Shown here in pieces: positions 18 to 61,128 of a stretch of DNA of 61,128 bases. Source of the DNA: a virus. The notes under the pieces are model-generated. The model searched no databases and was not told the DNA's origin. It saw only the letters and a list, made by a program, of their open reading frames with translations. The stretch is taken from IMG/VR virus record IMGVR_UViG_3300025000_000994, positions 1 to 61,128 of that record; one strand, given 5' to 3'. The position numbers and the translations under genes were made by a program. Position 1 is the stretch's first letter, and every line of letters starts with the position of its first letter.

Positions 18-965
18 TCACAATCTCCCTTCCTCCACGCTCCGTCTCACATCGTTCAGCCTCGGTACCACATCTTTATTCACCAGGCTATACATCTGCA
101 GAGTAAGTAGTTGCTGTTTTATCGCTTCCAACTCATGGCACACAGTAACCAGCTCCAACAGATCCACAAACACACCGGCACGATACCAGGATTCAAAGGC
201 TCGATATATCTTGCTTGTTGCACCGTATTTCTCGGGTAGCAATCTGAAGGACCTCAAATTACACAGAGCATACAAGATACCATTGAAGTATTTGCGCTGC
301 TCCGTCTGCTTTCGGCCTTTACTGTTTTGCGGGAATACCGGTCTGATAAGCTGCCATGATACGTCTGATATCTCATTAAATCCATTGTGGGAAATTTCCC
401 TTAATTGGCTTAACCCATTGATACTACTATATTTCACATCATGCCGCTTGTTTTTGGCGTTAACCTTTTCCGCTACGACAGGCCATGGGTTTTTTGCATT
501 GTCGCCCAGAATATCCGTGAGAATGTCCCAGCTGTCAGCATAGTACCCAAATGCTGCATAATCCTTCTCGGCAAACGCATTCCATGCTTGCTGCTCATAT
601 TGGGTTCGGATAGCTTTAATATGTTCGTAGAGCTTCCCATCCGATTCATTCAGCATCTTTGTGAGCATCAACCATCTTTGCATATGTGAGCCGTATGCCG
701 TAAGATTGCCGCGTTCATAGGCTTTATGTGCTTTTTCTTCCTCTTGCTTAATTGCTGATTTTGCGCCCTCGATGGAATCAGCCTGAAGCCGATAATACCG
801 AGTTCCTCTTGTATTTTTATTATACTTGTACGATGTGACAATATTTATTATCGTACCTTTTGACACATTATACATTTCGCCCAAACGCCTATAAGATACG
901 CTGGTAGTGCGATACAATCTGATAATTTCAGCTTCCTCTTCCGGAGAACAATATTTTTCTGACAC
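18..965 (-). CDS. HTH protein with IS402/DUF4096-like C-terminal domain
   Basis: An N-terminal helix-turn-helix (about residues 8-45, with YRRLGEMYNVSKGTI) is joined by a helical middle to a C-terminal stretch (about 200-275, with WQLIRPVFPQ, NGILYAL, FRLLP and IYRAFESWYRAGVF). That stretch resembles the N-terminal DNA-binding domain of IS5/IS402 transposases (DUF4096 type). No DDE nuclease domain follows, so transposition is not expected; a captured DNA-binding protein is more likely. It is the last gene of early module A, where module B has an ArpU-like activator, so a regulatory role is an inference. Its TGA lies 4 bases before an ATG at 13 that reads off the left edge. Confidence 0.6.
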   Translation of the reverse strand: MSEKYCSPEEEAEIIRLYRTTSVSYRRLGEMYNVSKGTIINIVTSYKYNKNTRGTRYYRLQADSIEGAKSAIKQEEEKAHKAYERGNLTAYGSHMQRWLMLTKMLNESDGKLYEHIKAIRTQYEQQAWNAFAEKDYAAFGYYADSWDILTDILGDNAKNPWPVVAEKVNAKNKRHDVKYSSINGLSQLREISHNGFNEISDVSWQLIRPVFPQNSKGRKQTEQRKYFNGILYALCNLRSFRLLPEKYGATSKIYRAFESWYRAGVFVDLLELVTVCHELEAIKQQLLTLQMYSLVNKDVVPRLNDVRRSVEEGRL

Positions 966-2639: not shown

Positions 2640-2843
2640 TTAATATCTTACAGGCGTACGTCTGTCATAGACTTGTATCCTAATCATGTATGTGTCACTA
2701 GCGTTTACGCTTGATACAGTTCTATCCATGTGAGGCTGTAATTCAGCACAATTTGGCTGTCCGCTTGCAACGATTTTTGAACCTTCCATAATTGTGATAA
2801 TGTTTCCGTAAGGTATGACCTTAACAATCTCTTTAACCTTCAT
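2640..2843 (-). CDS. Hypothetical phage protein, 67 aa
   Basis: The frame can be opened further upstream at a GTG, but that GTG overlaps the ribosome site GAAGGAG. The ATG at 2843 (MKVKEIVKVIPYGN) is 7 bases behind it and is preferred. The MKVK opening resembles a small family also at 45612-45818 and 32680-32814 (MKVKDLIEQL, MKAKALIEKL). Beta-strand rich C-terminus; function unknown. Confidence 0.6.
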   Translation of the reverse strand: MKVKEIVKVIPYGNIITIMEGSKIVASGQPNCAELQPHMDRTVSSVNASDTYMIRIQVYDRRTPVRY

Positions 2844-2878
2844 GCTACAACTCCTTCGCACTTTTTATATTTGTTGAA

Positions 2879-3439
2879 TCAATCTAACACATAAACCTCT
2901 AACCACTTCCTGCCAAACTCATTACACTCTACCTTACCAGCCATACATATATCCAGGTGACCATTGGTTATATCTCTGCCTCTGTCCATTACTATGAAAA
3001 CTCTATCGAAATAAGGAATATATACTCTCGCGCCAATCTCCAATTCCGGTCCTGCAGCAATAAATCCATCCTGAACCATTTGTCCTGATGCGGTAATGCC
3101 ATACTCAGGATCATCCGGTTCCTTCCCGCAAGATCCCTTCCAATATGCCGTGATTTCCATTATCATGCGAGTGCCGCGTTCACTGCCCCTGTCAACTTTA
3201 TCCTGCTTGGTGTCAAGCTGTTCCTGTAATGAGCCAATCTGCTCAGTTAGGGTGTTAATATATTGCTTATACTGAGTGCTCTCTGCTTGCATCGCATTAA
3301 CAGTATCTGTAAGGCTTAGAATTGCCGTTTTCTGTTTAGATAACATAATTTCATATTCGCGGCAGTTATCGTACAAACAAAGGGCAACTACGCAGGACAC
3401 AGTTATGATTAAAGCTATTATGTAATCTCTGCGTTTCAA
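2879..3439 (-). CDS. Membrane-anchored 3D-domain protein (module A)
   Basis: A short cytosolic start (KRRDY) is followed by one membrane segment (IIALIITVSCVVALCL), a coiled coil of about 45 residues, and a C-terminal 3D domain. The three conserved aspartates sit near YGITASGQ, VMDRGRDI and HLDICMAG. 3D domains are double-psi barrels often found in cell-wall lytic proteins. TTG at 3439 lies 8 bases after GGAG and overlaps the upstream stop as TTGA; a GTG at 3448 is the alternative. Homologues are at 58892-59403 (split) and 15387-15480 (remnant). Confidence 0.75.
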   Translation of the reverse strand: MKRRDYIIALIITVSCVVALCLYDNCREYEIMLSKQKTAILSLTDTVNAMQAESTQYKQYINTLTEQIGSLQEQLDTKQDKVDRGSERGTRMIMEITAYWKGSCGKEPDDPEYGITASGQMVQDGFIAAGPELEIGARVYIPYFDRVFIVMDRGRDITNGHLDICMAGKVECNEFGRKWLEVYVLD

Positions 3440-3933
3440 TCTATCCACTCCTTTACCGCCATACAGATATAACCTTGGGGTACAAACGGCTGTTTATCTA
3501 ATACATAAGGTACATCAAGCGTTACGGTATCCCCTGTGTAGCCTGTATAAGGATCATATTCCTCTAATACGAGAACGTCTCCAACTTGATAATCTCGGTC
3601 ATTCCAGCGGATTTCAAATGTCTTTTTACCGGATTTTATGACCTTAAAATATTCAGGCCATGTTTTAAGATGATGCGTTTTGTGTTTGTGATCTGGTTTA
3701 ATTCCATTGTGAATCTTTAATATCCATTCAGGAGCATCTATAAATTCAAACTCTCCTGGCTTAACACCTAAATGTTCACCATTTTCACATATTCCACAAA
3801 TTGCACCATGTGGATTTGATATTGCTGAGTATTCCATCCCGCTTCGTAAGATGGTACCTGGCTTTCCAGATACAACACCAAATGGGAAATCGGGTCTTAC
3901 ATTTTTTATCATGCGAATTTTAATTGTATCCAT
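3436..3933 (-). CDS. ASCH-like/DUF3850 protein
   Basis: 165 residues. The C-terminal half (about 85-165) matches the DUF3850/ASCH style: HHLKTWPEYFKVIKSGKKTFEIR, then RDYQVGDVLVLEEYDP and a closing GYICMAV strand. This PUA-like fold suggests nucleic-acid binding. The N-terminal 75 residues look like a small beta barrel and are not recognised. AAGGGG precedes the ATG. Confidence 0.7.
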   Translation of the reverse strand: MDTIKIRMIKNVRPDFPFGVVSGKPGTILRSGMEYSAISNPHGAICGICENGEHLGVKPGEFEFIDAPEWILKIHNGIKPDHKHKTHHLKTWPEYFKVIKSGKKTFEIRWNDRDYQVGDVLVLEEYDPYTGYTGDTVTLDVPYVLDKQPFVPQGYICMAVKEWID

Positions 3934-8823: not shown

Positions 8824-10881
8824 CTATGCCGCCTCCGTTTCAATCCTCAACACTTTATCCTTCTCGCTTACTACAAGCCTGAATAATTGTGATTTTGTCT
8901 CTGCCAGTGCGGTAACTGACTCTGCGTTATCACAAAATATAGGAGCTTCAAAATTGTAGAATTCGGAAAGAGTATTTATGATGTCAATACCTCCGTTGAT
9001 CCTGCCACCAGCATTTGCATCAGAGTAAGGTGTCCAGCAGCCGTTTGTATTGATAAGCGCCTCACAGCATTCATTAAGAGCTCCGTTGATCTGAACATCG
9101 AATAACTTAAAGCGAACATACTTGAATCGGCTATTGATCTTGCTGTCGAGCATTTTGACCTTTGTGCGGATAAATTCCTCTGTAATGAATAGCTCCCCTT
9201 CAAGCCGCTCGTATTCCTTGGCAAGCTTCTTTTCATCTGCTTTGAGTTCTTCAATTCTGTTCTTCATTTTTTCACACTGATCAACCAAATTTATTTTTGC
9301 CTGAAGTTCTCTAACCTTCGCAGAAATGTCCGCGATATCACTTTGAATTTTACTAATTCTTTCGTTGTTGCCATTATGCAATTCAGCAATTGCAGCCTTA
9401 ACCTGTGCAGCTTCAGCAGATTTTAATTTATACTCTGGCGTTTCAGAAACGTCTATGAAGCTGGCTTGTGTGTCTAAAATTCTCTGACGGACAGCATTAA
9501 GAGATACTTCTACATTAGCCGACCTTTTTACAAGTTCCGCGTATTCAGCATTCAGGGTAACAAGAGAAGCCTTTTTAATTTCAAGGGTAGCTCTTGTATC
9601 CTTGCCGGTAGCTTTGATTTTTTCAAGCCTGTTGGACTTGTCCATGTTAAATGCTTCAAGCGCTATTTGCTTTGCTGCCTCATATTCCTGCTGCGCTATT
9701 TCTCTAACAGAATCAAGCCTTTCTTGCGGGATATCTTGTCCACAAGTAGGGCATACAGAATCTTGGTTGAGAACAAATTCTCTATATGAAAATGTTTCTG
9801 CCTCTGTCTTGTCATACTTTTCGTAAAGGTTCTCTATTTCAGTTTCAAGAGTTTTTATCTGCCGTTCACAAGCACTTATTTCATCCTGTTTTAAACTGAC
9901 CTTACCTGAAACAGTTCTGTAAGCCAAACTGGATTCAACCTCTTGCTTGGTTAACTCGCTCAAAGCATTGGTTTTCCTCTGTTCATTGGCGTTTTTCATT
10001 CCAATAAGCTCTGAGTTAATCTCTGCTAGCTTCTTATTTTTCTCTGCAATTTCGCCACCTGATGTTATCCTGGTGGACTCCTGCCTTAATACTTCCTGCT
10101 CTTTCAATAGTCCATCAATTTCACCCTGCACCACTGAAACAACAATTCCTGTGGTATCCGGCATCATATTTTTGTTTTCGGTGATCTTGGCAGGTATCTT
10201 TTCGAGTTCATCATTGATTTTGCTCTTGGCAGCCGCTATGATCTTCCTCTGGTCATCTATGCTATGAGTTCCAAGGATAGCTGATAAACCTTTCAACTTG
10301 GAATTGCCTTCGATAACTTCTGAATCAGCAATATCTCCGCACACTTGTAAAAGCATTTTGCGTCTATCTGTCCAATGAAGCTGCTCGTTGAAATATAGAG
10401 GATTAGTCAGAAGTTTAAAAGCCTTTTCGTCTGCTATGTCCTGTATACGCTTTTTGTATTCACCTTCACTTTTAGGAACACCATCAACAAAGTAATCTGT
10501 TGTATTTCCTGCAAATGCTTGTTCTGAAGTGCCTCTTTTTTTTGTCCATCTTTCATAAAACACCTTTTTCAAAGCTAGTGTGCTACCACCTAAATCAAGC
10601 ACAGCCTCAACCTCTGTTTCAATCCCGTGAATGACTTCCTGTGTCTCGGGATCTATCGGTTTAATGCCGAAGTCAGAACGATTTAAACTGTCCTTGCCGT
10701 TCAGGAGCCAATTGAATGAATCTGCAATGGTTGTTTTGCCGGTTGCATTATCGCCAAAGATATTGATGTTATACTTGCCTTTCATCGGAACAGCAACACC
10801 CGCCTGGACCCAAGCATCTGCAGTAATAACCAATTCTTTGATCCCTTTGAAATTCTTAATTACCAGTTTGTTTATCCTCAT
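8824..10881 (-). CDS. SMC/Rad50-like ATPase with zinc hook
   Basis: 685 residues from the ATG at 10881 (MRINKLVIKNFKG), which follows GGAGG; an upstream in-frame ATG at 10986 would overlap the previous gene. The N-terminus has Walker A GDNATGKTT. Two long coiled coils flank a Rad50-type hook CPTCGQ, and the C-terminal half holds the Walker B region (PIFCDNAESV). Such phage ATPases work with nucleases in end processing. The counterpart at 54311-55741 is shorter and lacks the hook. Confidence 0.85.
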   Translation of the reverse strand: MRINKLVIKNFKGIKELVITADAWVQAGVAVPMKGKYNINIFGDNATGKTTIADSFNWLLNGKDSLNRSDFGIKPIDPETQEVIHGIETEVEAVLDLGGSTLALKKVFYERWTKKRGTSEQAFAGNTTDYFVDGVPKSEGEYKKRIQDIADEKAFKLLTNPLYFNEQLHWTDRRKMLLQVCGDIADSEVIEGNSKLKGLSAILGTHSIDDQRKIIAAAKSKINDELEKIPAKITENKNMMPDTTGIVVSVVQGEIDGLLKEQEVLRQESTRITSGGEIAEKNKKLAEINSELIGMKNANEQRKTNALSELTKQEVESSLAYRTVSGKVSLKQDEISACERQIKTLETEIENLYEKYDKTEAETFSYREFVLNQDSVCPTCGQDIPQERLDSVREIAQQEYEAAKQIALEAFNMDKSNRLEKIKATGKDTRATLEIKKASLVTLNAEYAELVKRSANVEVSLNAVRQRILDTQASFIDVSETPEYKLKSAEAAQVKAAIAELHNGNNERISKIQSDIADISAKVRELQAKINLVDQCEKMKNRIEELKADEKKLAKEYERLEGELFITEEFIRTKVKMLDSKINSRFKYVRFKLFDVQINGALNECCEALINTNGCWTPYSDANAGGRINGGIDIINTLSEFYNFEAPIFCDNAESVTALAETKSQLFRLVVSEKDKVLRIETEAA

Positions 10882-10927
10882 TTGTCTTTCGACCTCCCAA
10901 TTATATTTATCTTTCGGCCCATCATAG

Positions 10928-14027: not shown

Positions 14028-14282
14028 CTACGCGTACATCTTGACAGGATGCCGCAGGTTGTAGTAGTACACTGCCCTGCGTTTCGGCTTGCTGAGCTTG
14101 CTCAGTTTGGTTGCTTTGCGGCGTTTCTCGATGATAGCAACCTTACGCGGATCCTTAGGATTGCGGATACCCGGAATGATTTTGCATCCTTCAAACTTGC
14201 TGGTGTGAATTGGATTGGTGTATCTGTTCCCGCCAGCTGACATTGCGAAGATTGCAGCGATTAAACTTTTTAATTTGTCCAT
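14028..14282 (-). CDS. Basic phage protein behind the leader cassette, 84 aa
   Basis: Opens MDKLKSLIAAIFAMSAGGNRYTNPI, with a very basic second half (KRRKATKLSKLSKPKRR). Its ribosome site lies in AATAAATTTATAGGAGG, the same sequence that precedes 57055-57261 and 59414-60013. The first 20 residues resemble those of 57055-57261 (LLASLFGAL, YTPVE). Nucleic-acid binding is a guess from charge. Confidence 0.6.
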   Translation of the reverse strand: MDKLKSLIAAIFAMSAGGNRYTNPIHTSKFEGCKIIPGIRNPKDPRKVAIIEKRRKATKLSKLSKPKRRAVYYYNLRHPVKMYA

Positions 14283-14501
14283 AACGACCTCCTATAAATT
14301 TATTTTGTTTCGGAGAGGACAGTCGCGACCTGCCTCTCCACCATTTGTACATACTGCCTAGGACTTAACACCCGTTTTTATATTGGACATTTCTGCCCTG
14401 CTCTTATGGGTTTTGGTGGAAGATATGAGATTGACTACTCACTGTCTCCCAGATAAAGCGGGTCGATTCACCGCCCGCTTTGGTTTGCACAGTCACCGTA
14501 T
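14283..14501 (-). promoter_or_regulatory. Conserved leader cassette A, 3' part
   Basis: Untranslated sequence between the microprotein and the basic protein, matched at 60014-60270. It holds a strong hairpin GGAGAGG/CCTCTCC with inner CAG/CTG and the palindromic loop TCGCGA (14312-14339). Further elements are a CTC-TAT/ATA-GAG hairpin (14400-14430) and a compensating 8-bp stem AAAGCGGG/CCCGCTTT (14456-14483). A 12-codon GTG frame (MSSQSHIFHQNP) is also conserved in copy B. Likely a structured 5' leader. Confidence 0.5.
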
Positions 14502-14642
14502 TCAAACAAATCCAGTAGGATATCCGATTACCACCGACCTGCGGCGTGGACTATCGACTGTACCGCTTGCATAACAGACTGTGCAATGTCTTATCAAACT
14601 GTTCAGCCAATCGTACCAATCGAATCCGAATATTGCCTCCAT
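14502..14642 (-). CDS. Microprotein IFG-W-GYPxGFV, copy A (46 aa)
   Basis: Starts MEAIFGFDWYDWLN and ends VVIGYPTGFV. GGAGG lies 6 bases before the ATG. The homologue at 60271-60408 (MDGIFGYSWF to NVVGYPSGFV) has the same length to within one residue, and many differences fall at third codon positions (ATA/ATT, TAT/TAC, CCT/CCA, TTT/TTC). This indicates selection on the protein. No known family recognised. Confidence 0.65.
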   Translation of the reverse strand: MEAIFGFDWYDWLNSLIRHCTVCYASGTVDSPRRRSVVIGYPTGFV

Positions 14643-14790
14643 AGGCTTCCTCCGACACTTTTATTCTTTAGCCCGGTACATATCGACCTGTACCGAATAA
14701 TAGTGGGCTAGCTAGTTGGCTTTATGGATGAACCCGCCAGAACCGCTTAGAAACTTTACAAATGAGTGGCATCACCTACCTTTGTGGATA
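14643..14790 (-). promoter_or_regulatory. Leader cassette A, 5' part, with 40-base repeat
   Basis: On the minus strand: AAAGGTAGGTGATG (ribosome site plus ATG of a 16-codon frame, MPLICKVSKRFWRVHP), the 40-base repeat (14726-14765), a TAGCCC/GGGCTA stem enclosing a CGGTACA/TGTACCG hairpin, then a conserved stretch (GAATAAAAGTGTCGGAGG) ending in the microprotein ribosome site. Shared with 57262-57412 and 60409-60601. Confidence 0.5.
14726..14765. repeat. 40-base dispersed repeat, copy 1 of 3
   Basis: Begins GGATGAACCCGCCAGAACCG and ends TTTACAAATGA on the plus strand. Copies at 57310-57349 (identical by eye) and 60496-60535 (single changes). All lie in leaders of minus-strand genes. Confidence 0.75.
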
Positions 14791-19264: not shown

Positions 19265-20449
19265 ATGGCACGGCCTAAAAAACAGAACGACAAGCCATTA
19301 ACACGTAATCCTAATGGAATGGGCAACATTTATAAAAGACCTGATGGCAGGTATGAATGGAAGCAGATGGTTGATGGTGAGGTGCGGTACGAATCAGATA
19401 TAAATCTGTCTGAACTAAGAAGGAAAATAAAGAAACAAACAAACATAGGCATTAATAAGGATAAAACAAAATTATTTGAATGGATAGCCTACTGGCTTGA
19501 AAACTATGTTCAGCCTTATAAAAAACCTTCCACGTACAATAACTACAAATTCGCTTACGAAAAGTACATCAAAAAATATATGAGAAATGTCCAGCTAAGG
19601 CATGTTACAAAGATGGATGTTCAAAAAATGATAACAGACCTAATTAATGATAAGTATTCACCGTCATTAATAAAGAATGTTCGCAAGGCTTTAAGTGCTG
19701 CATTTATTTCAGCAAATGAGGAGGAACAGATCGTTGACTTCAACCCAACCAGAGACACTAAACTGCCCAAAGGCAGAACCCCTACCCGAAAAACTTTGAA
19801 ATTAGAGGAGCTAATTGCAGTTATTAATAAGTTTAAGACATCAAGGTGGTTATATGCTATCTTATTTATGCTTGCTACAGGATTGAGAAGGGGCGAACTA
19901 TTAGCCGTAAGATGGTCTGATATTGACTTTAAAGAAAAGCGTATCGGCATAGAAAACAATCAAACTCAATACGGGATTGACACGCCAAAAGACAATGAAT
20001 ACCACTATGTGCCGTTAACAGATCACGCCGTGGCCTATTTGTCTGGATGGAAAAACCAGCTTCAAAAGGAATACAACCCAGCCATATATCACAAAGTTGA
20101 TACTATTTTTGTATCAAAAAGTGGACAACCCTTACGACCTTCAAGTTTTAATAACACACTGGCAAAGCGCAAATTTGATTTTAAAGTAACGCCACACATG
20201 TTCCGGCATACCTTCGTATATCTCTCAAAGGGCAAAATAAGCCTGAGTGAATTGCAGGAAGCATTAGGACACGACCAGTCAACTACTACATTGGATATAT
20301 ACGGTCTTATGCTCGCTGATACTGTTGCTGTTGCTGATAAAATTGAAATAGCATACAAAGAATTGGATGAAGCTATGAAGGAAAATAAAAAGAAAAAGCA
20401 GGAAAGTAATGTTGTAGATTTCACACAAAGAAGATTAGCAAAACAATAA
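19265..20449 (+). CDS. int: Tyrosine integrase
   Basis: 394 residues with an arm-binding N-terminus (GMGNIYKRPDGRYEWK), a core-binding SAM-like domain and a catalytic domain. Active-site residues: R208 (TGLRRGEL), K242, H311 and R314 (HMFRHTF), H336 (LGHD), Y346 (LDIYG). GAGGAGG is inside the repressor 3' end, so the two are coupled. The attachment region follows at once. Confidence 0.93.
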   Translation: MARPKKQNDKPLTRNPNGMGNIYKRPDGRYEWKQMVDGEVRYESDINLSELRRKIKKQTNIGINKDKTKLFEWIAYWLENYVQPYKKPSTYNNYKFAYEKYIKKYMRNVQLRHVTKMDVQKMITDLINDKYSPSLIKNVRKALSAAFISANEEEQIVDFNPTRDTKLPKGRTPTRKTLKLEELIAVINKFKTSRWLYAILFMLATGLRRGELLAVRWSDIDFKEKRIGIENNQTQYGIDTPKDNEYHYVPLTDHAVAYLSGWKNQLQKEYNPAIYHKVDTIFVSKSGQPLRPSSFNNTLAKRKFDFKVTPHMFRHTFVYLSKGKISLSELQEALGHDQSTTTLDIYGLMLADTVAVADKIEIAYKELDEAMKENKKKKQESNVVDFTQRRLAKQ

Positions 20450-57054: not shown

Positions 57055-57261
57055 CTAACCTCTTGTCCTGCGTTCCATCTTCCTGCGCTTGCTTTGACTT
57101 CTGCGAGCGTTGTAGCCTAATTCCGCATTGCCGTCAAAATAATGTCCTCTGCCACCCATTGATTCAACTGGAGTATACGCCTTTGTGCCTTGCAATGCGC
57201 CGAATAAACTTGCAAGTAAGCCTACCTTCTTTGCGCTTGTTACTTTTGATGATGTCTGCAT
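57055..57261 (-). CDS. Basic phage protein behind leader cassette C, 68 aa
   Basis: MQTSSKVTSAKKVGLLASLF, then YTPVESMGGRGHYFDG and a very basic end (RRSQSKRRKMERRTRG). Weakly like 14028-14282. Same AATAAATTTATAGGAGG ribosome site. Confidence 0.6.
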   Translation of the reverse strand: MQTSSKVTSAKKVGLLASLFGALQGTKAYTPVESMGGRGHYFDGNAELGYNARRSQSKRRKMERRTRG

Positions 57262-57412
57262 CTTAACCCCTCCTATAAATTTATTAGCCTTTCGGCTGGT
57301 AGCGGGCTTGGATGAACCCGCCAGAACCGCTTAGAAACTTTACAAATGAAATGTAATTATCAGCCGGCTTTATTTGTCCGGCGCATGGGCATCACCTACC
57401 TTTCTGTGGAAA
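57262..57412 (-). promoter_or_regulatory. Leader cassette C, short form
   Basis: Minus strand: AAAGGTAGGTGATG with a 10-codon frame (MPMRRTNKAG, 57360-57392) that ends in a GCCGG/CCGGC hairpin, then the 40-base repeat, an AGCC-GAAA-GGCT hairpin and the shared ribosome site. It lacks the microprotein. Confidence 0.5.
57310..57349. repeat. 40-base dispersed repeat, copy 2 of 3
   Basis: Identical by eye to 14726-14765. Confidence 0.75.
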
Positions 57413-57538
57413 CTACCAATATTTCAAAATAGCAATTATCGCTTTAAATAGCCATTTCAGACAAAAACCTGCAAATACAAGGTATCCAATAATTAGAACA
57501 CTTAAGACGATTGCAACCGGGATTGTGATATTTTCCAT
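57413..57538 (-). CDS. Small membrane protein, 41 aa
   Basis: MENITIPVAIVLSVLIIGYL continues into VFAGFCLKWLFKAI, almost wholly hydrophobic. GGAG before the ATG; 5 bases after the 44-residue gene. Confidence 0.55.
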   Translation of the reverse strand: MENITIPVAIVLSVLIIGYLVFAGFCLKWLFKAIIAILKYW

Positions 57539-57543
57539 CTCCA

Positions 57544-57678
57544 TCACTCCCCTTCCTCCCCTATATCCACTATCCGCCCATCTCGGACGATAAAATATGT
57601 GCCTGTCAACCTGTACCAGTCTGCGAACCAGTGTATGCCGGTTTGCTCGTTGAGGATGATTGATTTTTCAAGTGGCAT
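57544..57678 (-). CDS. Small conserved protein MPLEKS, copy B (44 aa)
   Basis: MPLEKSIILNEQTGIHWFAD to VDIGEEGE, a near copy of 14971-15105. Third-position and few replacement changes only. Confidence 0.65.
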   Translation of the reverse strand: MPLEKSIILNEQTGIHWFADWYRLTGTYFIVRDGRIVDIGEEGE

Positions 57679-57716
57679 GTGAGACTCCTTTGTGTGGATT
57701 GTCTTGTTATTACGAA

Positions 57717-58847
57717 TTAACCCAATAAACTCATTTGACCTCTGATCTGGTTTTTGTATTCACGCAGCCGCTCGGCTTCCTTTTTCTGTTTGAGGGCCTT
57801 ATAATTGTTGTATTGCTGACGGTATCTGTAGCTATCACCAAACACATTCCACGCCGCCTTTACCAAATTTGGCTCAAACGGTCGTATCTTCTCTAAATCC
57901 TCTACTGCCCTTGCTGATATAGAACAACCACAACAACCTGTGCGCTTTAAGCCGTATACCTCATAAGCATCTGAGTATCTAATTTTGTGATAATCTTTGT
58001 ACCACTGCTTGTCCGCATCAGACACGTAATATAGTGGTCTAAGCCGATATTGCCCATCTGCCGTCTCGGCAAAACACATGGCCGTATTATCCTTGCGCGG
58101 GACAGATCGCATGCCGCCCTCGTCCCTGCGTTCGCCCGTAATTACCATGTCAAACGGCTTTTGGACGCTATGTGCAAGTTGCTTTTTGCAGCAATCACAA
58201 CATTTGTTGCTGACTTTAAACGAGATTGGATTCTCTTTGATGAAGTCCAGCATATACTTTGATGAATTTATAACCAGTTGAATATCGGGTCTGGGTTCTC
58301 CCTTGGAATTGCAGCAGCATAGGAAATTAATCGTTGTTTCGCACCCCGGATATCGTTTTTTAAGTTCCGCGCGTTTTGCCACCTTATCCTCTGCGTCTGC
58401 GTATTCTGCAGCGATCGATAGCGGGATGTTTTTCTTCTGAATTCCTTCGAGCCCGGCTGACATGATCTTCGATACAAACGGCTGACCATATTCCCTCGTG
58501 GCCTGTACTATGTTCTTCTTGGGTCGATGATCTCCAATTGTGATGCCGTACAACTCCTCCATTTTGCGTACATGGCGTTTTGTTGCCTCCATTTCAAGCC
58601 CGGTGTTAAAAAAGCAGTATTGGATAGGTGGGAGATTGAAAGTCTTACGCACGGTCTCGATTAAATGCAACATGATATCGCTGTCGCTACCTCCAGAATA
58701 AGAGCAAATCGCATTCGGATATTCAATCAACCTTTTGGCTATGATGCTTTTTATTGCCTCAAATTTGCGCGGCGCTTCAAAATCTGCGTACGGTGGCCTG
58801 TCTGTGTATACTCTACTTTTAAATTCTGTGTTCTTATTGGATCCCAT
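57717..58847 (-). CDS. PAPS-reductase-like PP-loop protein
   Basis: ATG at 58847 after GAGG. PP-loop SYSGGSDSDIMLHLIE, the family's FNTGLEMEATKRHV region, and Cys clusters (FLCCCN, NKCCDCCKKQ, GCCGCS) that may hold iron-sulphur. Phage members are annotated as PAPS reductases, but many act in sulphur transfer or DNA modification. Lone in this operon, so the substrate is open. Confidence 0.75.
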   Translation of the reverse strand: MGSNKNTEFKSRVYTDRPPYADFEAPRKFEAIKSIIAKRLIEYPNAICSYSGGSDSDIMLHLIETVRKTFNLPPIQYCFFNTGLEMEATKRHVRKMEELYGITIGDHRPKKNIVQATREYGQPFVSKIMSAGLEGIQKKNIPLSIAAEYADAEDKVAKRAELKKRYPGCETTINFLCCCNSKGEPRPDIQLVINSSKYMLDFIKENPISFKVSNKCCDCCKKQLAHSVQKPFDMVITGERRDEGGMRSVPRKDNTAMCFAETADGQYRLRPLYYVSDADKQWYKDYHKIRYSDAYEVYGLKRTGCCGCSISARAVEDLEKIRPFEPNLVKAAWNVFGDSYRYRQQYNNYKALKQKKEAERLREYKNQIRGQMSLLG

Positions 58848-58891
58848 ATAAAACCTCACTTTTTATTGCGCAATATTTATAAACTCCGTAC

Positions 58892-59413: not shown

Positions 59414-60013
59414 CTAACCTTTCGGAGCATCGAGCATGGCAGCCTTTTCTTGCAAAGCTCTAAGCATTTCCGGTATATTAAGCCTTTGAATTATGTCGAT
59501 TGAAAGTTGATTTTTAAGTGTCGCTTCAAGAGTTTTGACAATGGTTTCCTCTGCGTCTTTGCGAGCTGTCTGAATCATTTTACTTACCTTTGACGCAAGC
59601 TCTTTTTCGAGGTACTTTTTGATGAAGTATTCATTGATGGACAATTTAGCATCATTTGAATATCTTGGTTCACAACCGTTTTCATCAAACACTTTTTTAT
59701 TAAGGAAACTTTCGTATTGCATACCAACAAACTTGCTCATGGGTATCATTTCAACCTTTGAATCCCAACTATTGCCCTTATGAGGAATTTTCATATTCTC
59801 AATTTTGCCCCTCAAAGTATCATTGAGAAATTCGTCAATAACCTTGCCTGTTGTCTCTTGAATTGTACTGCTTAGTTCTTTTGTGATTTCCTTTGTGGCA
59901 TCGGCTGTTATTTTGGATTTTAAAGACGATATGACTTCCTGCTTTATCGTGTCGTCTATTCCTCCACCTTCTTCCAACCAATCCAGTTCTACTTCAATGC
60001 TAAACTTAGCCAT
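59414..60013 (-). CDS. Hypothetical early phage protein, 199 aa
   Basis: MAKFSIEVELDWLEEGGGID with long helices (IKQEVISSLKSKITADATKE, KMIQTARKDAEETIVKTLEA). Preceded by AAATTTATAGGGAGG of leader cassette B. Possible counterpart of 11431-12168. Confidence 0.6.
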   Translation of the reverse strand: MAKFSIEVELDWLEEGGGIDDTIKQEVISSLKSKITADATKEITKELSSTIQETTGKVIDEFLNDTLRGKIENMKIPHKGNSWDSKVEMIPMSKFVGMQYESFLNKKVFDENGCEPRYSNDAKLSINEYFIKKYLEKELASKVSKMIQTARKDAEETIVKTLEATLKNQLSIDIIQRLNIPEMLRALQEKAAMLDAPKG

Positions 60014-60270
60014 CCTAACCTCCCTATAAATTTATTTAGTTTCGGAGAGGACAGTCGCGACCTGCCTCTCCATTCCGTTGTACATACTGCCCAGGACTTA
60101 ATACCCTTTTTTATTCGGCTTTCGCCTGCTCTTATGGGTTTTGGTGGAAGATATGAGATTGGTTACTCACACTCTCCCAGATAAAGCGGGCGAACCTCAT
60201 TGATTAGCCCGCTTGTGTTATATTTAAATTTGTTGCTAGGCCGTATCGTGCGCCTCTCCGATGGAGTACG
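60014..60270 (-). promoter_or_regulatory. Conserved leader cassette B, 3' part
   Basis: Matches 14283-14501. The GGAGAGG/CCTCTCC hairpin with loop TCGCGA (60044-60071) is unchanged. The variable stem is AAGCGGGC/GCCCGCTT, differing in sequence but still paired. The 12-codon GTG frame (MSNQSHIFHQNP) is kept. Confidence 0.5.
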
Positions 60271-60408
60271 TTAGACGAATCCGCTTGGGTATCCGACTAC
60301 ATTTGAACGCTGTACTGGCTTGGTAAAGTAGTGGCATTGAACAAACTCAAACGGTTTAATGTAACACTTCAACGCCTCAAACCAGCTGTACCCGAAAATT
60401 CCATCCAT
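60271..60408 (-). CDS. Microprotein IFG-W-GYPxGFV, copy B (45 aa)
   Basis: MDGIFGYSWFEALKCYIKPF to NVVGYPSGFV. GGAGG 7 bases before the ATG. Homologous to 14502-14642, conserved at both ends and variable in the middle. Not part of any family I know. Confidence 0.65.
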   Translation of the reverse strand: MDGIFGYSWFEALKCYIKPFEFVQCHYFTKPVQRSNVVGYPSGFV

Positions 60409-60601
60409 CCCTTTACCTCCGACACTTTTATTCTTTAGCTCAGCACGACCGACCGCGCGCTTTAATTATCTGCGAGCTTCACAAGTGGGCTTTATGGATA
60501 AACCCGCCAGAACCGCTTAGAAACTTTACAAATAAAAAATAAAATAATAATTATCAGCCGGCTTTATTTGTCCGGCGCATGGACATCACCTACCTTTCAA
60601 G
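60409..60601 (-). promoter_or_regulatory. Leader cassette B, 5' part
   Basis: AAAGGTAGGTGATG with a 10-codon frame (MSMRRTNKAG, 60554-60586) closing in a GCCGG/CCGGC hairpin, then the 40-base repeat, an AGCTC/GAGCT stem and the conserved GAATAAAAGTGTCGGAGG before the microprotein. Confidence 0.5.
60496..60535. repeat. 40-base dispersed repeat, copy 3 of 3
   Basis: Matches copies 1 and 2 except for single changes near its left end and at its last bases. Confidence 0.75.
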
Positions 60602-60937
60602 TTATGCCATTATTTGCTCGCCACAATTTGGGCATTCCCTGTATAGCCAGTTACGTTTCCAAAAGCTCCACCCTTCGCACATTGCCATATCGTGAATAGT
60701 TAGCGGTATAAACTGGCCCTTAACCTCGCCCGTGATGTCGTAGTAGCTGTTTCCTATTTTTGTAACAATGTGGTCTTTCGTTTGAATAAAATAAGGCTCT
60801 GCATCGGGATAAATTACCCTTAAAAACTTGTAGAATTGATAGCAACCGCCGTTAAGATATATTTTCTCGATGTAGATAATGTCTGTATTTCTTAATGCAT
60901 CTATAAGGGTTATAGGGTTCAAATCCACCGTTATCAC
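60602..60937 (-). CDS. Hypothetical protein with zinc-ribbon end, 111 aa
   Basis: ITVDLNPITLIDALRNTDII, IYLNGGCYQFYKFLRVIYPD, SYYDITGEV and a final CPNCGEQIMA. The start is uncertain: GTG at 60937 is only 3 bases from AAAGG, while ATA stands where other copies of AAAGGTAGGTG have ATG. GTG at 60928 is a third choice. Function unknown. Confidence 0.6.
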   Translation of the reverse strand: MITVDLNPITLIDALRNTDIIYIEKIYLNGGCYQFYKFLRVIYPDAEPYFIQTKDHIVTKIGNSYYDITGEVKGQFIPLTIHDMAMCEGWSFWKRNWLYRECPNCGEQIMA

Positions 60938-60961
60938 CTACCTTTGTGTGGATAATCTTGT

Positions 60962-61128
60962 TTATACACAATTACAATTATCACCTCTGGCTGTGATTGC
61001 GCCATTCGCCACCCTGGAATCTAAAAATTTACCAGTATCAGTACCCTTTACACATTCAAAGCCATTTGCACCGCAAACAAGGTATCGGCAGCATTCATTG
61101 CCCTGTCCTATTTTGCATACGGTTTTTA
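60962..61128 (-). CDS. Cys-rich small protein, copy B, cut by the window edge
   Basis: 5' end missing here; stop TAA at 60962-60964. 55 codons match 15135-15335 (KTVCKIGQGNECCRYLVCGA, ending GDNCNCV). Joining base 61128 to base 1 adds ATG GTT ATA AAA in frame, giving MVIKLKTVCKIG against KVKTVCKIG in copy A, and places its ATG 4 bases after the gene ending at 18. Confidence 0.65.
   Translation of the reverse strand, partial: KTVCKIGQGNECCRYLVCGANGFECVKGTDTGKFLDSRVANGAITARGDNCNCV
61030..61128. repeat. Exact 99-base repeat, copy 2
   Basis: Identical to 15203-15301 and ends exactly at the last base of the window. Confidence 0.85.

Follow-up and report, generated by a model that had tools for sequence, protein, structure and literature searches.

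What does a set of conserved elements do when it stands in front of several different genes of one virus? The window analyzed here, a whole IMG/VR virus contig of 61,128 bases, holds three copies of such a cassette on the minus strand: c14 (14283-14790), c57 (57262-57412) and c60 (60014-60601). A sequence-only reading had taken them for one leader, either a translational attenuator or a mobile regulatory leader. Comparison with related contigs indicates that the cassette is a mosaic of parts that vary between copies, not one leader.

Three cassettes in a temperate phage

The virus is a temperate tailed phage, with terminase, weak portal and anti-repressor matches and an integrase-like frame. 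The closest terminase matches, from Staphylococcus and Bacillus phages, reach only about 39% and so do not fix the host. Self-comparison revealed two related early regions at the contig ends (1-15301 and 45000-61128), sharing 10 blocks of 77-100% identity that lie 42.6-46.8 kb apart, and position 15301 matches the right end, 61128. The paired regions would be explained by a genome of about 45.8 kb, possibly circular, that has a second early region in variant form, or by two prophages in tandem; an assembly of two strains is a further option. Given this pairing, c14 and c60 may be variants (alleles) of one locus rather than independent copies, and c57 and c60 are two copies within one early region. 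The contig's left end encodes a DUF4096 protein with a weak Sigma70_r4 match (18-965, minus strand). An early-region protein with a PAPS reductase domain (57717-58859, minus strand) lies in a stretch that also occurs upstream of the L016 cassette.

In self-comparison, 57309-57404 matches 60495-60598 (88%, E 4.5e-27), 14287-14466 matches 60018-60193 (89%, E 4.4e-57) and 14649-14763 matches 60416-60533 (80%, E 6e-16). The core of c14 (14725-14765) is identical to that of c57 (57309-57349) at 41 of 41 positions (E 2.8e-14). These E values exclude chance for the shared cassettes. All three contain AAAGGTAGGTGATG and AATAAATTTATAGG(G)AGG; the 5' box, repeat and 3' box of the sequence-only reading are borne out where it had put them. 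Each cassette abuts the start codon of the next gene and, as had been claimed, the three genes are different. They are unrelated to one another and have no match in Pfam or PHROGs; in NCBIfam, two weak matches far below the cut-off were obtained for the gene behind c60 and none for the other two. The sequence AAAGGTAGGTGAT also occurs at 60933-60945 as the RBS of a separate gene (60602-60937), and is thus not private to the cassettes. A DNA search of phage records with c60 found none.

The described short frames MPMRRTNKAG and MSMRRTNKAG are present in c57 and c60. They had been said to end inside a GCCGG/CCGGC hairpin; in fact the frame passes through the hairpin, with its stop directly after the 3' arm. 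c14 lacks the RTNKAG hairpin and has a different short frame, MPLICKVSKRFWRVHP, instead. A gene of 46 codons in c14 and 45 codons in c60, here called ORF2, had been overlooked. Features of the three cassettes are listed in Table 1.

Table 1. Features of the three cassettes, the genes behind them and the integrase-like frame.
Locus	Feature	Coordinates	Strand	Remarks
c57	Part A SD box AAAGGTAGGTGATG	57390..57403	-	exact box also in c14, c60
c57	Part A short frame MPMRRTNKAG-stop (second ATG gives MRRTNKAG-stop)	57360..57392	-	same type in c60, L001, L012, L015, L016
c57	Hairpin GCCGG..CCGGC within short frame	57363..57382	-	weak covariation
c57	Part B core ATTTGTAAAGTTTCTAAGCGG and hairpin GGU-UCU-GGCGGGUU..AGCCCGCU-ACC-A	57297..57347	-	41-nt exact repeat; hairpin z -3.3; no covariation
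c57	Part E hairpin AGCCGAAAGGCT (GAAA loop)	57286..57297	-	
c57	Part E AATAAATTTATAGGAGG, RBS of next gene	57269..57285	-	
c57	Gene behind, 68 aa, basic	57055..57261	-	no family
c60	Part A SD box	60584..60597	-	
c60	Short frame MSMRRTNKAG-stop	60554..60586	-	
c60	Core	60501..60533	-	
c60	Part C hairpin before ORF2, GGTCG in loop	60437..60478	-	covariation
c60	ORF2, 45 aa	60271..60408	-	
c60	Stem-loop AAGCGGGC..GCCCGCTT	60184..60214	-	identical 45 nt in L014
c60	Part D minihelix GGGAGA..TCTTCC-ACCA	60142..60178	-	
c60	Long hairpin before RBS	60044..60071	-	
c60	Part E AATAAATTTATAGGGAGG	60019..60036	-	
c60	Gene behind, 199 aa	59414..60013	-	start resembles gene behind L061 cassette (by eye)
c14	Part A SD box	14770..14783	-	
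c14	Short frame MPLICKVSKRFWRVHP-stop, across core	14722..14772	-	
c14	Covarying hairpin before ORF2	14670..14709	-	
c14	ORF2, 46 aa	14502..14642	-	
c14	Part D minihelix GGGAGA..TCTTCC-ACCA	14414..14450	-	
c14	Long hairpin before RBS	14312..14339	-	
c14	Part E AATAAATTTATAGGAGG	14288..14304	-	
c14	Gene behind, 84 aa, basic	14028..14282	-	no family
Phage	Integrase-like frame	19265..20449		by reading

Optional parts and exchange joints

Relatives were gathered by pattern scans and a profile scan with ORF2. Cassette parts were found in ten other viral contigs: L001, L012, L014, L015, L016, L017, L018, L060, L061 and L063. L059, L062 and L064 are the contigs of L001, L014 and L015 again, and L026 is a second module on the L014 contig. 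Pattern matches L011 and L013 were discarded as chance by their surroundings, as were 39 of 44 stretches from one pattern scan, judged by eye; L012, L015, L016, L017 and L026 were kept.

Part A consists of an SD and a short frame, which is of the RTNKAG type in c57, c60, L001, L012, L015 and L016 and is another frame of 3 to 50 codons in c14, L014, L017, L061 and L063. Part B, the core, is found in c14, c57, c60, L001, L012, L015 and L017, and in altered form in others. Part C is the optional ORF2 (c14, c60, L001, L014, L015, L016, L060, L061 and L063), part D an optional tRNA-like element or minihelix, and part E, which is fixed, a short hairpin followed by AATAAATTTATAGGAGG or a near form. 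L015 alone carries an HNH endonuclease gene inside its cassette (10372-10902, minus strand; Pfam HNH_3, 3.9e-11), between a stem-loop that follows ORF2 and the tRNA-like element.

Two contigs are recombinants that switch at a box. L012 is 95% identical to the c14 upstream flank up to the SD box, after which it matches c57 and the genes downstream of it at 99%, the switch falling at the 5' box. L016 has the c57 upstream genes and the c57 3' box, then the gene found behind c14; ORF2 lies between its boxes, and here the switch falls at the 3' box. Genes on both sides are exchanged at the SD box and the 3' box. The idea of an exchangeable leader is supported insofar as modules are swapped by recombination; terminal repeats, target duplications or an integrase of its own, the marks of a mobile element, were not seen when cassette ends were read by eye.

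A small protein and tRNA-derived elements

The nine ORF2 frames are 43-47 codons long and have nine invariant columns in common. Five pairs have a dS below 1, and their dN/dS of 0.11-0.45 identifies ORF2 as a real protein. Searches of Pfam, NCBIfam and PHROGs gave no match for this conserved small protein, and comparison with phages and plasmids gave matches with E above 1 only. Its predicted structure (mean pLDDT 56.8) was not usable. ORF2 is absent from c57, L012 and L017.

A hairpin precedes the ORF2 SD in six loci. Within it 95% of cells pair, and both partners change in 5 of 11 pairs, including 4 of the 6 inner pairs. Its covariation score was reached by 0 of 500 shuffles and slid controls fail; the number of two-sided pairs was equalled in 4 of 500 shuffles. 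MAFFT placed a gap in three rows of this helix, for which three cells were set aside and three scored as unpaired. The hairpin tail CTAAAGAATAAAAGTGTCGGAGG is nearly invariant. No such hairpin was seen by eye in L016, L061 or L063.

The Rfam tRNA model (RF00005, gathering cut-off 29 bits) matches inside the cassettes of L060 (47.7 bits), L061 (45.2 bits) and L063 (44.8 bits). Below the cut-off are L014 (16.9 bits), L001 (16.1 bits) and L018 (13.6 bits, T-arm only). The window gave 0 matches at E 10, with none at c14 (narrow scan) or c60, and the model does not recognize its minihelices. ARAGORN called no tRNA gene in the cassettes, those of L060, L061 and L063 included. The anticodon arms are abnormal, with a 9-nt loop in L060 (1882-1956, plus strand) and expanded arms in L061 and L063; an ordinary tRNA gene was rejected for these three, as none has the normal 7-nt loop on a 5-bp stem. 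Apart from the tRNA matches in L060, L061 and L063, nothing exceeded an Rfam cut-off, and scans of c60 and part of c14 at gathering and relaxed thresholds gave nothing relevant. A tmRNA was rejected (L015, 16.9 bits against a cut-off of 47), and a group I intron and a T-box were dropped as Rfam gave no match. The best Rfam match in c60, to cow-rumen-4 RNA, is sub-threshold (20.9 bits; cut-off 48.5) and covers a hairpin and the RBS-like stretch after it at 60016-60078 (minus strand).

Ten elements keep a tRNA-derived acceptor and T half, with arms located by eye. Of 70 acceptor-arm positions, 66 are paired, a count that is partly circular given how the arms were located; the fairer figure is that 4 of 20000 re-dealings did as well. 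For seven representatives, pairing is 47 of 49 and 95 of 20000 re-dealings were as good. The T-arms form 4-5 of 5 pairs. A T stands just before the acceptor in 10 of 10 elements and a purine just after it in 10 of 10, followed directly by CCA in only 5 of 10. The stretch between the arms ranges from 1 to 154 nt: 1 nt in c14 and c60, 25-29 nt in L015, L001 and L016, 43 nt in L060 (near a normal tRNA) and 154 nt in L018. With both arms paired and the stretch between them so variable, the half read by RNase P has been kept and the decoding half lost. The element is reduced to a minihelix in c14 and c60 and is missing from c57. c60 and L014 share 45 exact bases up to the 5' acceptor arm; the 3' half of c60 is different yet still pairs. 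The folds of the L014, L016, L060 and L061 elements have unremarkable z-scores (-0.7 to -1.4). Searching with the L018 element gave four weak matches, of which three overlie tRNA genes in other phages.

A hairpin followed by ACCA stands in place of part D in c57, L012 and L017. CCA also follows the hairpins that precede the second module of L015 and L026; in 9 of 12 modules it is no more than one base away from the part E hairpin. As a control, the 200 nt upstream of each gene were examined for a 6-bp helix whose end lies one base before CCA. Requiring at least 4 G-C pairs, this was found for 1 of 3 cassette genes and 0 of 64 others; the threshold was then lowered to at least 3 G-C pairs, which gave 3 of 3 and 1 of 64. 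In L063, long forward frames are missing from about 1.2 kb after ORF2 (about 2640-3890, plus strand); this stretch contains the tRNA match that passes the cut-off and another at 21.8 bits, and may hold a larger structured RNA. Weak tRNA matches of 21-25 bits outside the cassette, in the L001, L015, L016 and L017 records, are perhaps attachment sites.

Candidate functions and known systems

From these parts we infer a function tentatively. Part D may be a processing mark within the polycistronic early transcript, like the t-element of plant mitochondria, with part E starting the next gene; this is a plausible reading that we hold with less than even confidence. RNase P would act on its 5' side and RNase Z or exonucleases on its 3' side, splitting off the cistrons upstream; the message of the next gene would then begin with a small hairpin, for protection, and a standard RBS. 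This reading is favored because the parts kept, namely the acceptor and T half, the T before it, the purine after it and often CCA, are those that RNase P reportedly reads, and because the t-elements of plant mitochondria demonstrate that mRNA ends can be set in this way (PMC11658184). RNase P is described as accepting hairpins with a 3' RCCA (PMC12710915), and the bacterial enzyme as acting on mRNAs and phage RNAs (PMC11143913). The tRNA scores above the cut-off in three cassettes, the outcome of the CCA-helix control and the nearness of CCA to part E also speak for it. Against a processing mark, c57 has no part D, and covariation in its remaining hairpin-ACCA stem does not go beyond shuffles. 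Also against it count the window's minihelices, which the tRNA model passes over, the direct CCA in only 5 of 10 elements and the unremarkable fold z-scores.

tRNA relics carried along passively by recombination would look similar and are about equally likely. The boxes would then be short homologies at gene joints, kept for their RBS, and the tRNA-like pieces functionless relics or hitchhikers. The exact switches of L012 and L016 at boxes, between-box content that differs in nearly every contig, and boundary sequences described for other phages (PMC3029335) all speak for this account, which has a chance comparable to that of the processing mark. By itself, however, it leaves the conserved ORF2, the covarying hairpin and the paired acceptor and T halves with a lost middle unexplained. 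Another rival is post-transcriptional control of ORF2: an RNA-binding protein of phage or host would attach to the GGTCG-loop hairpin, and the upstream short frame would couple or tune ORF2 translation. The two-sided inner pairs and their covariation score, the nearly invariant tail and the low dN/dS agree with such control, which we consider rather unlikely as the account of the cassette: in the window it covers c14 and c60 only, c57 (like L012 and L017) having no ORF2, and the hairpin was not seen in three relatives that do have the gene.

Leader-peptide attenuators place an SD, a short frame and a hairpin before genes, and the cassette resembles them in this respect. The RTNKAG frame with its stop is kept in 6 of 11 readable places, and by eye the core ATTTGT can pair with the ACAAAT loop of the short frame. 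The frame is, however, missing from c14, L014, L017, L061 and L063, and the genes downstream differ. In the short-frame hairpin one pair has changed on both sides and another is broken, a result that 32 of 500 shuffles equal, and the core hairpin, at 64 of 72 pairs against a shuffle average of 64.3, is no better than shuffles. Accessibility of 12 SDs, folded with 150 nt upstream, runs from 0.01 (L060) to 0.56 (c57), with a mean of 0.53 for 37 other genes; those of L060 and L061 look masked for all lengths tested, while masking of the others is not consistent. Scans of 57200-57800 and 59900-61128, covering c57 and c60, found no terminator-like sites. The sequence-only reading had staked itself on covariation and conserved short frames in a wider alignment; short frames do recur, but strong covariation is found only in the ORF2 hairpin. 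Unlike leader-peptide attenuators, the cassette has neither an alternative SD-masking structure nor a constant downstream gene, and translational attenuation of the following gene is very improbable. Poorer still are the prospects of decoy tRNAs that occupy or resist a host anticodon nuclease: the 9-nt loop of L060 and the expanded arms of L061 and L063, in elements with otherwise good tRNA scores, would suit them, but c14 and c60 have no anticodon arm at all and the arms differ in nearly every contig.

Taken further, the processing-mark reading would make part D a phage counterpart of t-elements: tRNA genes captured in early operons, stripped of the decoding half and reused as RNase P marks that move together with a new small protein and the hairpin-RBS module, giving whichever gene lies behind them a message of its own. 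This fuller version is more doubtful than the mark itself. If true, phages, like plant mitochondria, have made tRNA genes into portable punctuation for the processing of polycistronic messages, and the steps from full tRNA to bare minihelix are visible among related genomes. The presence of structured RNA at mosaic phage joints would then also have a simple explanation. Searches of open-licence papers turned up no description of tRNA-like marks for RNA processing in the early operons of phages.

Several known systems are comparable. GOLLD and ROOL are likewise phage-encoded structured RNAs near or linked to tRNAs (PMC12286853); unlike them, the cassette has no match to these Rfam families and its region is interrupted by ORF2. 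Non-tRNA substrates of bacterial RNase P include the phage M3 and C4 RNAs and polycistronic mRNAs (PMC11143913), whereas the cassette elements, as putative substrates, are mosaic and repeated before several genes. They differ from the t-elements of plant mitochondrial mRNAs in their phage setting, their position between genes with an SD and their reduction to a minihelix in the window. Boundary sequences at mosaic phage joints are described as short conserved sites of module exchange (PMC3029335). The cassette likewise has short conserved exchange joints, but structured RNA and a small gene are found at these joints.
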